DNA of 22,211 bases. Source: a virus. A program made the translations under genes and the position numbers. This document shows, in pieces, positions 1 through 3,641 of the stretch. The notes below the pieces were generated by a model. That model saw only the letters and a program-made list of their open reading frames with translations, was not told where the DNA came from and did not search any database. Each line of letters starts with the position of its first letter. Within the stretch, counting starts at the first letter, position 1. Where the stretch lies: IMG/VR virus record IMGVR_UViG_3300031775_001407, positions 1-22,211 of that record; one strand, written 5' to 3'.

Positions 1-116
1 AACTGAGTCAAAACCGAGGCAAAAAACTCAATGGAGAATTAACTGATTTAGACAAAATAATAAACCGCGTTGATCGCGTTAAAAAACTAATACTTAAAAA
101 AGATGAACTTATCTGA
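1..116 (+). CDS. C-terminal end of an unidentified protein (partial)
   Basis: A reading frame is open from the left edge (first full codon at base 3) to a TGA at 114-116, giving 37 residues that end in KKDELI. It is rich in Lys, Asp, Leu and Ile, for example DLDKIINRVDRVKKL, and should form an amphipathic helix. The start lies outside the window. Its last 14 bases overlap the ATG of the next gene, an arrangement used repeatedly in this genome, which supports it as real coding sequence. I do not recognise the family. It could be the end of a longer protein or a small helical protein. Confidence 0.5.
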   Translation, partial: LSQNRGKKLNGELTDLDKIINRVDRVKKLILKKDELI

Positions 117-297
117 ATTTGAAAGGGCTAAACCCACGGAAACTTACAAAGCTATCATAAAGGCAAAGGATAAGTATGAGACTTTACTTAAAGAAACCGT
201 GATTATGGAAGATACAGATGCCGTCCGAGTGGAGATGGCTAGAGTTTTCTTAAGAGATTTAAAAGAAATTTTTCTAAAATTCAAATCTGGCAAATAA
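103..297 (+). CDS. small helical protein of unknown function (64 aa)
   Basis: A 64-aa, strongly charged and probably all-helical protein with no signal peptide or membrane segment. The ATG at 103 lies inside the end of the preceding frame, suggesting translational coupling, although only an A-rich stretch precedes it and no clear Shine-Dalgarno is visible. It ends just before the inverted repeat at 297-313 and the DUF2589-type gene. The size and position would also suit a tail-assembly chaperone partner, but I see no family motif and no convincing minus-one slippery site linking it to the upstream frame. Unrecognised. Confidence 0.55.
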   Translation: MNLSEFERAKPTETYKAIIKAKDKYETLLKETVIMEDTDAVRVEMARVFLRDLKEIFLKFKSGK

Positions 298-315: not shown

Positions 316-930
316 ATGGCTAGTATAGCAGATCAATTCAAAGGACTCCCTATTGGGACACTCATCGCGGAACCATTGCTTGGAGCGGCAAAAGCACAGG
401 GTCAACTCGCTCACACGACAGAAAATTTTATAAAAGATATCGGGCTGCAAGACGACGGCAAAGGTAATCTTAGCGCACGTACCGTAGAATTTGATTATGA
501 TGCCCCAGTTGAATCTAAAGATGCAAAAGGAGCCTTAACGACAACAATCGAAAACCGTAAACTCAAAGTCCCCCTTCTCTCTATTATACAAACGCCTAAC
601 CTAGGTGTTAAAAAAGCCACCGTTGACTTCGACATGGAGGTTAAATCCAGCACTCAGGACACTAGCTCTGTTGATACTAAAACCGACCTTAGTGTCAAAT
701 ATGACAACTGGTGGTCTCCTGTTAAAGTAGATTTAACCGCTTCCGTATCCACGAAAAGCGAAAACATTCGCAAGACTGATAACTCCGCCAAATATACAGT
801 TCACGTAGAAGCGCGGGATGACGGGGCTCCAGAGGGGCTTATGAAAGTTCTTGACATTCTTGGAGCAGCTATTCAGCCTGTTCCTGCTGGCGGAGGAAGC
901 AACACTCCCGCCACGCCGCCTAGTAATTAA
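316..930 (+). CDS. DUF2589-type protein, first of a pair (204 aa)
   Basis: The opening MASIADQFKGLPIGTLIAEP, followed by LLGAAKAQGQLAHTTENFI, is typical of the DUF2589 family as I know it: an N-terminal helix with P-L-x-A-A-x-x-A-Q, then a beta-rich body. Shared landmarks are VPLLSI (85-90), a strand reading DFDMEV (104-109) and a C-terminal PEGLMKVLDIL (172-182). A low-complexity PVPAGGGSNTPATPPSN tail ends the protein. The function of the family is unknown. There is no signal peptide or membrane segment, so it is probably cytoplasmic or packaged. The stop overlaps the next start (TAATG at 928-932), so the two are likely co-translated. The next gene has the same strand and helix landmarks, indicating a paralogous pair. 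Confidence 0.75.
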   Translation: MASIADQFKGLPIGTLIAEPLLGAAKAQGQLAHTTENFIKDIGLQDDGKGNLSARTVEFDYDAPVESKDAKGALTTTIENRKLKVPLLSIIQTPNLGVKKATVDFDMEVKSSTQDTSSVDTKTDLSVKYDNWWSPVKVDLTASVSTKSENIRKTDNSAKYTVHVEARDDGAPEGLMKVLDILGAAIQPVPAGGGSNTPATPPSN

Positions 931-1406
931 TGGCTGACGATAAACTACCTTATTCAAAATCTGGATCATTTAGAGGTGCTCCGGCGCTAAAGACGTTCGA
1001 TCACCTTATCCAATGTCTCTATAACTCTGTAGTTTATGCTCAACGTTATGTGGAAACTGAGCATTTAAAGCGGGTTATAGGGACGTATTTTGACGACCAC
1101 GGACGTCCAGTAACCAAAAAGATAATCTTACCCACTACAGAGGGGGAACAGGAGGTGGAAATACCCATCATGACCCTTGCTGGGCACAACCACTTAAAGA
1201 TAGATAGTTTAGATATGGAGTTTGAAGTGGATTTGGGTCAATTTGAGAACTCAGATAACCATCAAAAAAGAAGAATGATAGCTATGATAGGGAGAAAAGA
1301 CCCAAAAAATACCCTCGCTAAAGTTAAGCTTACAATTAAAAACGGCGACACCCCTGAAGGGATAGCTCGAATAAACGATAAAATTGTAAAAACCATCCCT
1401 AGTTAA
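930..1406 (+). CDS. DUF2589-like partner protein, second of the pair (158 aa)
   Basis: This protein follows the same plan as its upstream neighbour: a helical N-terminus (DHLIQCLYNSVVYAQRYVE), then IPIMTL (78-83), HNHLKIDSLDMEFEVDL (87-102), and a closing strand-helix with PEGIARIND (142-150). The paired elements (P-x-x-x-L, then D-x-x-[FM]-E-V, then D-x-PEG-x-x-x-x-x-D) match the upstream protein in order and spacing. I recall bacterial DUF2589 proteins of this second sub-type with a HNxLxI-x(n)-EFEVDL signature, often next to a sub-type resembling the gene at 316. The start overlaps the previous stop by one base. Function unknown; a hetero-oligomer with its neighbour is my inference. Confidence 0.7.
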   Translation: MADDKLPYSKSGSFRGAPALKTFDHLIQCLYNSVVYAQRYVETEHLKRVIGTYFDDHGRPVTKKIILPTTEGEQEVEIPIMTLAGHNHLKIDSLDMEFEVDLGQFENSDNHQKRRMIAMIGRKDPKNTLAKVKLTIKNGDTPEGIARINDKIVKTIPS

Positions 1407-1412
1407 TATAAT
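1384..1412 (+). promoter_or_regulatory. possible sigma70-like promoter before the coiled-coil gene
   Basis: TTGTAA (1384-1389) and TATAAT (1407-1412) are separated by exactly 17 bases, spanning the end of the DUF2589-like gene. The minus-10 matches consensus fully and the minus-35 matches 4 of 6. The expected start of transcription falls on or next to the ATG at 1419, so the transcript would be leaderless or nearly so, in keeping with the lack of a Shine-Dalgarno. The 13-mer AATATAATAAAAA (1405-1417) recurs exactly at 9884-9896 in the better-placed divergent promoter region. AT-rich sequence makes chance matches common. Confidence 0.3.
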
Positions 1413-1418
1413 AAAAAT

Positions 1419-1655
1419 ATGGCCAGTGGTTATTTAAGATTAATGTTGGATTCAGCTCGTCGTTGCGCCTCGGCTACTCAAGACGCAGCAGAAGATGCTC
1501 GAAAAGCCTCGGAAGAAGCTAGGCACGAAGCTCAGGAGATTGATCAAATGGCTCAAGATGCAGCGTCTAAAGCTGTAGAAGCCAGTGAAAGAGTCAAAGT
1601 CCTTGAGGCTAAAGTGCTTAAACATGACAATATGGGCGATGAACCCAACACCTAA
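1419..1655 (+). CDS. small Ala/Glu-rich coiled-coil protein (78 aa)
   Basis: About residues 15-65 form one long amphipathic helix rich in Ala, Glu, Asp and Lys, with repeated A-x-x-A and E-x-x-x-A spacing, for example AEDARKASEEARHEAQEI. This is typical of a coiled coil or helical bundle. It has no signal peptide and no membrane segment. It lies directly after the two DUF2589-type genes and before the pyrophosphatase, whose preferred start overlaps it by 17 bases. It might be a small partner of the DUF2589-type pair or a helical virion protein; neither can be decided from sequence. ATG at 1419 is the only reasonable start and has no obvious Shine-Dalgarno. Confidence 0.6.
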   Translation: MASGYLRLMLDSARRCASATQDAAEDARKASEEARHEAQEIDQMAQDAASKAVEASERVKVLEAKVLKHDNMGDEPNT

Positions 1656-2214
1656 TCTCGTTAACGACATCCCAATTACTTGCGATGGGTTTGCCCACGT
1701 TAGCTGTATAGTAGAAATCCCGAAAGGGACAAATACCAAATACGAATACAACGAGGAATATAATATTTTTGAATTAAATAGATGCCTTGTATCATCTTTG
1801 CAGTATCCCATCAATTACGGCTTTATAAGCCAAACTTTCGCATTAGATAGGGACCCTCTAGACGTGCTTATTTTTAACCACGATCCTATAGACAGGGGAA
1901 GTTTGGTTAGGTGTAGAGTTTTGGGGGTGTTAGATTTTGTTGACAATGATGAAATAGATTATAAAGTCATAGCGGTTCCTCACTGGACGCCTAAAAGTCG
2001 CTACCCTCGCTTAAACTCTATTGAAGCGGAGCACCTTAAGATATTTAAACAGTTCTTTAGGATTTACAAAATAGATCGCTCTGACAGCGTGAAAGTAGGA
2101 GAATGGAAGAACGGCCGGGCTGCAAGCAAGGTAGTCTCCGAGGCTCACAATCGGTGGTCTTTAAAAAAATACGAAGAAACAAGAAAGGAAACGGAAAGAC
2201 ATGGGAATGTTTGA
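1639..2214 (+). CDS. ppa: inorganic pyrophosphatase, family I (soluble)
   Basis: This enzyme hydrolyses inorganic pyrophosphate to two phosphates in the cytoplasm, using Mg2+, and so pulls nucleic-acid synthesis forward. All the catalytic and metal-binding positions of E. coli PPase that I know have counterparts (from ATG 1639): E26, K34, E36, R48, Y56, Y60, the D70-x-D72-x-x-D75 signature in LDRDPLDVL, D102, D107, K109, and Y143-K144. The 191-aa length is normal for a bacterial family I enzyme. The frame also extends upstream to a GTG at 1585 and an ATG at 1624, but 1639 gives the family's usual N-terminal length and the smaller overlap with the coiled-coil gene. The stop overlaps the next gene by 14 bases. 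The residue set argues for an active enzyme. A pyrophosphatase inside a phage structural neighbourhood is uncommon. Confidence 0.93.
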   Translation: MNPTPNLVNDIPITCDGFAHVSCIVEIPKGTNTKYEYNEEYNIFELNRCLVSSLQYPINYGFISQTFALDRDPLDVLIFNHDPIDRGSLVRCRVLGVLDFVDNDEIDYKVIAVPHWTPKSRYPRLNSIEAEHLKIFKQFFRIYKIDRSDSVKVGEWKNGRAASKVVSEAHNRWSLKKYEETRKETERHGNV

Positions 2215-2748: not shown

Positions 2749-3432
2749 ATGAAAAAAATAATTGTATTCTTCTTTATAGTAACGGCCGTCGGCGGCCAAA
2801 ATGAATATAACTCAATTAACGAAAGAAACGCCTTTTCCCTAACCGAAGGAATTCTACCTCCCATCGACACAATCCTCGCGCCCCCAAAACCCTCAGCAAA
2901 ACTTTACTTAACCGGTATAATGAGATACCAAGGACTTACCAACGTCTTCCTCTACTCCAAAGATACTCCTAAAAGATTCCTCACCCTCAACCACCAACAA
3001 CGGAGTGACAGCGGGATTCAGCTTCTCAGCGTAAAGAAAGGAACAGTTGAAGTCCTTAATAACGGAGTGGTGGAAAAACTCTCCTTTGCTACTCATAAAA
3101 TGCCTACGACTATAGGCCCTGCCCCGGTCTTCAACCGGCCCACCGTGATAAAAAAGAGTGAGAAGGACGATAAAAATAAAAATAAAGAGAAAAAAAGTGC
3201 CCCTTCTTCTCCGCGACCTTCTGTTATTAAGGTTCCCTCTCGCCAACCCAAGGTAGACCCAAGTATAATTCAGAAGAGTCTGGAGTACTTGAGCAAAACA
3301 GAAGATAAAGAAAAAAGAGAATACCTCATCCAAAGACTGGAACTGCTTCAAAGTAGCCAAAACAATCTCGATAGAAAAATTGACACTAATGAAAGACGTC
3401 GCCAATACGATGAGCGTCGGCGCGACAAATGA
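2749..3432 (+). CDS. exported protein with a GspC/PilP-like HR domain and coiled-coil tail (227 aa)
   Basis: An N-terminal signal sequence or anchor (MKKIIVFFFIVTAVGG) is followed by NAFSL (27-31) and a Pro-rich linker. Then comes a small beta domain (about 52-113) with LTGI (54-57), a middle strand RFLTL, then GIQLLSV, KGTVEVLNNG and LSF. This is the layout of the GspC/PilP homology-region domain: N-x-F-x-L, P-rich linker, LxGI, GIxVLxV, GTVxVxN-G, LxF. I know such short proteins as numerous in Verrucomicrobiota, often near type II secretion or type IV pilus genes. Residues about 130-165 are a charged, Ser/Pro-rich linker; 165-227 form a very charged coiled coil ending in RRR-rich sequence. 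Exported or inner-membrane-anchored in the periplasm. The stop overlaps the next ATG (ATGA). Role in the phage unknown. Confidence 0.75.
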   Translation: MKKIIVFFFIVTAVGGQNEYNSINERNAFSLTEGILPPIDTILAPPKPSAKLYLTGIMRYQGLTNVFLYSKDTPKRFLTLNHQQRSDSGIQLLSVKKGTVEVLNNGVVEKLSFATHKMPTTIGPAPVFNRPTVIKKSEKDDKNKNKEKKSAPSSPRPSVIKVPSRQPKVDPSIIQKSLEYLSKTEDKEKREYLIQRLELLQSSQNNLDRKIDTNERRRQYDERRRDK

Positions 3433-3641
3433 ATATCCCCAAAGAAGGACTAATAGAGTTTGTTAATTTTGTTAATGAGTGTTGCGCTGTTATGGAGGAT
3501 AGTTATGTGGCTGAATGGCTCAATAAGCCTCATCCAGATTTGAACATGGACAGTCCTATGGATCTAGTTAATGATGAAGCCGGTAGAGAGAAACTTTATC
3601 GCCTCCTTTATTTTATTGATATAAACGAAGCTGACCTTTAA
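3429..3641 (+). CDS. orphan antitoxin-like protein, Xre/MbcA/ParS toxin-binding domain (70 aa)
   Basis: Residues about 15-65 match the C-terminal toxin-binding domain of Xre/MbcA/ParS antitoxins (also called DUF2384). The match includes W30-L31, P34-x-P36-x-L38, S42-P43-x-x-L46 and then E-x-G52-R-E followed by a Leu-rich helix (LYRLLYFID). In known systems this domain binds and inhibits RES-type toxins such as MbcT or ParT. The N-terminal helix-turn-helix of Xre antitoxins is absent and the protein is little more than the domain. There is no RES toxin upstream or downstream. The start overlaps the GspC-like gene by an ATGA; the stop shares TTAA with the opposing IPT/TIG gene. It could neutralise a host toxin, but it might also have been co-opted for something else. 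Confidence 0.7.
   Translation: MNIPKEGLIEFVNFVNECCAVMEDSYVAEWLNKPHPDLNMDSPMDLVNDEAGREKLYRLLYFIDINEADL

Follow-up and report, generated by a model that had tools for sequence, protein, structure and literature searches.

Phage-borne pairs of DUF2589 paralogues and their bacterial counterparts in the vicinity of peptidoglycan hydrolases

The window analysed here comprises the full length (22,211 bases) of an IMG/VR virus record, which may be part of a larger genome and contains lambda-type minor tail genes. It encodes two adjacent DUF2589 proteins, hereafter A and B, which are followed by a short Ala-rich ORF and preceded by another small ORF (Table 1). The A protein displays an N-terminal helix, a β-rich middle region, the segment PEGLMKVLD and a Pro/Gly-rich tail. 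Both proteins match the Pfam family PF11655 over nearly the whole profile, scoring 117.8 bits (A) and 57.7 bits (B) as against a curated cut-off of 23 bits, and a search of the full record recovered no PF11655 matches other than these two. Hence, the assignment of both neighbours to DUF2589 in the initial annotation is borne out, for the second protein as well as for the first. The one-base overlap that it reported between the two genes is likewise real and is retained in every close relative inspected. As the number of terminator-like sites in the window is that expected by chance, and promoter-like sites exceed this expectation only to a moderate degree, no operon boundary was drawn from either.

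Table 1. Features in and around the DUF2589 gene pair, in coordinates of the window
Feature	Position	Strand	Evidence
64-aa ORF upstream of A, found in the whole phage group of the window; membership of the unit uncertain	103..297	+	cluster 36, 17 loci
DUF2589 A-type protein, 204 aa	316..930	+	PF11655, E=7e-34; alignment; pN/pS 0.05-0.14 among close relatives
TAATG, stop of A and start of B with one shared base	928..932	+	sequence; 16/16 close relatives
DUF2589 B-type protein, 158 aa	930..1406	+	PF11655, E=2.2e-15; hhalign against A, 94%; pN/pS 0.06-0.12 among close relatives
78-aa Ala-rich candidate coiled-coil protein, 20.5% Ala	1419..1655	+	17 loci; heptad pattern; sub-threshold Alanine_zipper match

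The third ORF is a good coiled-coil candidate on account of its heptad pattern, with hydrophobic residues or alanine occupying 88% of the a/d positions in the best heptad frame, and it matches the Alanine_zipper family just below the threshold (22.6 versus 23.1 bits). This gene is fixed solely in the phage group of the window, and no relatives were detected by BLAST in the remaining phage groups. The earlier proposal of a three-gene unit including the coiled-coil gene is therefore supported within this phage group, but probably does not extend to the other phage groups, or to the bacteria, whose third gene is an unrelated one (see below) and many of whose A proteins bear long C-terminal extensions instead; the coiled-coil gene as a general third component was set aside as unlikely on the same grounds. 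Directly 3′ of it lies a gene for a Family I inorganic pyrophosphatase (window positions 1633-2214, plus strand; PF00719, 1.2e-43; no PHROG match), which is also found in a related phage contig (L018, 9657-10193). Further downstream, at positions 3429-3641 of the plus strand, a 70-aa ORF shows a weak match, slightly under the cut-off (1.3e-4), to the Xre/MbcA/ParS toxin-binding domain.

Profile-profile comparison with hhalign aligned phage A with phage B over 133 columns at 94% probability (E=1.2e-7), indicating that the two are true paralogues. The sequence landmarks originally noticed in both proteins fare differently in this alignment: D-x-x-[FM]-E-V and PEG-x5-D occupy homologous positions, but P-x-x-x-L, while present in both proteins, occurs at non-homologous places, with VPLLSI of A being paired with IPIMTL of B, and PIGTL of A with TFDHL of B. 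B is the faster-evolving paralogue, and the A alignment retains 48 invariant columns over 14 divergent phage copies. In the phylogenetic tree all A sequences, phage and bacterial, form one clade (support 100/99), within which phage A constitutes a single clade (98/95) nested among the bacterial versions; the B-type sequences fall outside the A clade, with deep and uncertain branching. A and B are separate lineages, and both include phage as well as bacterial sequences. Further, both are under strong purifying selection, with dN of 0.03-0.09 and dS mostly above 1 in the phage group of the window, alike for A and B, in addition to the low pN/pS values listed in Table 1.

A scan with A recovered 173 viral stretches encoding relatives, 80 of which were kept for analysis. 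Together with the window these make up 81 viral loci, at 78 of which both paralogues are present, with the B-type copy beside or near A. In the three exceptions (L040, L058 and L067) A is situated close to the contig or locus end, and B has probably been cut off by the end of the contig. Since the phage A copies reduce to approximately 14 distinct types at 85% identity, many of these loci are near-duplicates. The window's group and some others have the order A-B, and the remainder B-A.

The genomic neighbourhood of the pair varies considerably among the phages. In the window's group it is flanked by nrdB on one side and the pyrophosphatase on the other, and elsewhere among the loci of this group and L019-L029 it adjoins nucleotide-metabolism genes. 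In many of the loci L030-L082 recombination genes are nearby, and the opposite strand carries an endolysin-like gene; other neighbours include the terminase large subunit (L191), a capsid gene (L193) and a weak holin-like match (L201). One locus, L068, displays the order holin-B-A-88 aa-endolysin, and in 29 further viral loci an endolysin-like gene is found 0.25-1.6 kb from A. Up to a distance of 8 kb from the pair, a small query set detected no lysin homologues either in L019-L029 or in the phage group to which the window belongs. The idea that phages share a uniform lysis context was thus rejected, given that the pair also occurs near terminase, capsid and recombination genes, and its variable neighbours suggest that it behaves as a movable cassette. 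Such an unfixed position, which is frequently close to genes of nucleotide metabolism or recombination, together with the placement of phage A as one clade among bacterial A, might point to a host-takeover or counter-defence cassette that was taken from bacteria and is functionally unrelated to the wall. We regard this as quite improbable, however, as the strong conservation of the proteins is ill-suited to a fast arms race and neither of them matches any PADLOC family.

Beyond the viruses, a scan of genome contigs identified 193 bacterial relatives, of which 80, chosen by similarity to A, were retained; by their record titles, they come from Proteobacteria, Desulfobacterota, Clostridia, Bacteroidota and Actinomycetota. 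The window A is 38-46% identical to the bacterial A proteins. At least two DUF2589 copies are present at 79 of these 80 loci, and scoring against the phage A and phage B profiles resolves them into two types, the second copy of Clostridia being divergent. At 75 loci A and B form a three-gene core with a further gene of about 87 aa, here termed C3, with the gene orders BAC, BCA, ACB and ACBB. The invariant positions of C3 are G, N, L, Y-H, G-F and P, and the two members tested had no match in Pfam or NCBIfam; the versions at L101-L180 (e.g., L104, 6628-6891) represent a candidate new protein family. No C3 match was found among the ORFs of the phage loci examined, including the window, and a scan of the viral collection with a single peptide pattern recovered it in one contig only (L184), in the order GH108-B-A-C3. 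Among other bacterial neighbours, a gene with a YopT-type cysteine protease domain lies directly 3′ of the DUF2589 genes in Amycolatopsis (L160, 7641-8747), and a peptidase-domain ABC transporter is found elsewhere along with an HlyD adaptor.

The recurrent pairing anticipated by the initial annotation is thus seen across many phage groups as well as bacteria. A and B are ancient paralogues that have been held together in both, and the pair in the window is a phage copy of this paired form of DUF2589. Additionally, the A and B distances are correlated (Spearman 0.57 in bacteria and 0.53 in phages, with 0 of 1000 permutations as high), a pattern that common ancestry alone could also yield. This correlation, along with constant pairing despite swaps in gene order and the purifying selection, is compatible with an obligate pair.

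As the 80 bacterial loci had been picked by their likeness to A, an even sampling of genomes was added, in which PF11655 was present in 32 of 1557 genomes (3/369, 2/299, 7/297, 19/296 and 1/296 in the individual samples, with five centre genomes counted). The sampled genomes nearest to A (G746, G936 and G941) contain the paired genes with C3, and many DUF2589 copies of Bacteroidota are single, with no C3 nearby. Pairing is hence a property of the A/B lineage rather than of PF11655 as a whole. The notion that DUF2589 is always paired was rejected on account of single-copy lineages, chiefly from Bacteroidota. Single- and multi-copy lineages of the latter phylum, nearly all without a nearby C3, are represented by L215-L230.

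The most prominent neighbours of the bacterial core are peptidoglycan hydrolases, which are found beside it at 53 of the 80 loci (51 detected by seven query families, in addition to L168 and L172) and belong to about eight unrelated families, namely GH24, GH108, GH19, GH25, Amidase_2, CHAP, the PF11860 muramidase and PG_binding_1 (Pfam-confirmed as PF00959, PF05838, PF00182, PF01183, PF01510, PF05257, PF11860 and PF01471). Of the hydrolase matches, 58 are at most 1.5 kb away from the core (57 of these on the same strand) and just one is found at 1.5-6 kb. This enrichment is much stronger than that of any other neighbour class seen, with the query families having been taken from among the neighbours and the loci being phylogenetically non-independent. 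A recognised lysin is missing at the other 27 loci, which include most of those from Vibrio. In the even sample, a PF11860 muramidase is encoded 1.1 kb from C3 in G936 and a PG_binding protein adjacent to the core in G941; inspection by eye revealed no hydrolase near the core of G746. A simple hydrophobicity window found 57 of the 59 hydrolases to be without a transmembrane or signal-like segment, and a small transmembrane gene in the operon at only 4 of the 51 lysin-bearing bacterial loci. By the same approach, no membrane segments or signal peptides were seen in phage A and B, and a clear membrane anchor was found in none of A, B and C3.

These contexts also bear on the possibility that A and B constitute a virion or intracellular structural assembly, such as a scaffold, decoration or filament, whose product the bacterial lysin would merely release in a tailocin-like manner. 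The unusual conservation of A, the long extension of its C-terminus in many Clostridia as well as some Vibrionaceae (which by eye looks coiled-coil in L119 and L130) and the adjacency of the pair to capsid, terminase or tail genes in some phages would be in keeping with such a role. Nevertheless, we consider it unlikely, given that the bacterial operons show no prominent structural family, whether of tail, capsid or other type, and that the pair has no fixed place within phage structural modules.

Structural and database searches add little to this picture. The predicted models of A and B are poor (pLDDT of 46 and 56, respectively), the PDB offers no sequence relative or related solved structure, and a Foldseek search of viral models with these poor queries returned one significant match, to an unnamed protein which is probably a sequence relative. 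Neither protein has a match in PHROGs, NCBIfam or PADLOC, and a reading as anti-phage defence was dropped for want of any match. Pfam records no function for DUF2589, and the open-licence literature provided one passing mention and no functional study. DUF2589-related genes have been noted in the archaeon Archaeoglobus (PMC3949148), and hence the family is not bound to peptidoglycan. This archaeal occurrence, the apparent solubility of the proteins and the neighbouring YopT-type protease and peptidase-domain ABC transporter with its HlyD adaptor could be accommodated if A and B were a cytoplasmic adaptor or chaperone pair of general scope, serving exported or toxic cargo of which lysins would be one common class; that hydrolases far exceed the other neighbour classes in their enrichment makes this improbable.

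The interpretation that we tentatively put forward is that A and B could form a hetero-oligomer helping endolysin-type enzymes, or cell contents, across the envelope. Under this proposal, the two proteins would assemble as one complex acting at the cell envelope alongside endolysin-type hydrolases, as a lysis or release accessory that helps the hydrolase or cytoplasmic contents past membrane and wall. In bacteria the complex would work with the small C3 protein and an interchangeable lysin, and in phages A and B would act without C3, the pair forming a movable cassette that certain genomes carry next to or within their lysis genes. The window's phage might use the same activity, the coiled-coil protein being an addition specific to its group; this transfer of the envelope role is the weakest step, since in this group no lysis genes were recognised in the vicinity of the pair. 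A more specific version, which we view as rather doubtful, would have A and B (with C3 in bacteria) function as an undescribed machine, independent of holins, for the arming, holding or export of endolysin-type wall hydrolases, the phages using the two-protein form for lysis or release. Together, the pairing, the new small bacterial partner and the hydrolase link provide DUF2589 with a first specific and testable functional hypothesis, which, if true, would explain how bacterial endolysin-like enzymes lacking both signal peptides and nearby holins exit the cell, and would add a new kind of component to phage lysis. For the host-interaction role raised as a possibility in the initial annotation, the association with hydrolases in bacteria is the strongest lead.

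In relation to known systems, the window is a phage-borne instance of DUF2589 in which both proteins match PF11655, unlike the many single-copy members from Bacteroidota. It shares the two adjacent paralogues with the bacterial A/B/C3 core, but, like other phage loci, is devoid of C3; moreover, the bacterial core usually has an adjacent hydrolase, whereas no lysin was recognised close to the pair in the window's group, in contrast to some other phages. The placement of the pair between holin and endolysin in L068 recalls the holin/endolysin/spanin cassettes, yet phage A and B have no membrane segments or signal peptides and their position varies among phages. In type 10 secretion, a holin and a peptidoglycan hydrolase together act in the release of ChiA and, via TtsA, of typhoid toxin in Salmonella (PMC10109510). 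Most DUF2589 loci differ from it in being without a holin-like gene alongside, and the partner proteins are unrelated. However, in the bacterial loci, too, phage-like hydrolases without export signals adjoin a conserved non-enzymatic partner, and type 10 holin/hydrolase secretion is the closest known working analogy for the DUF2589 loci.
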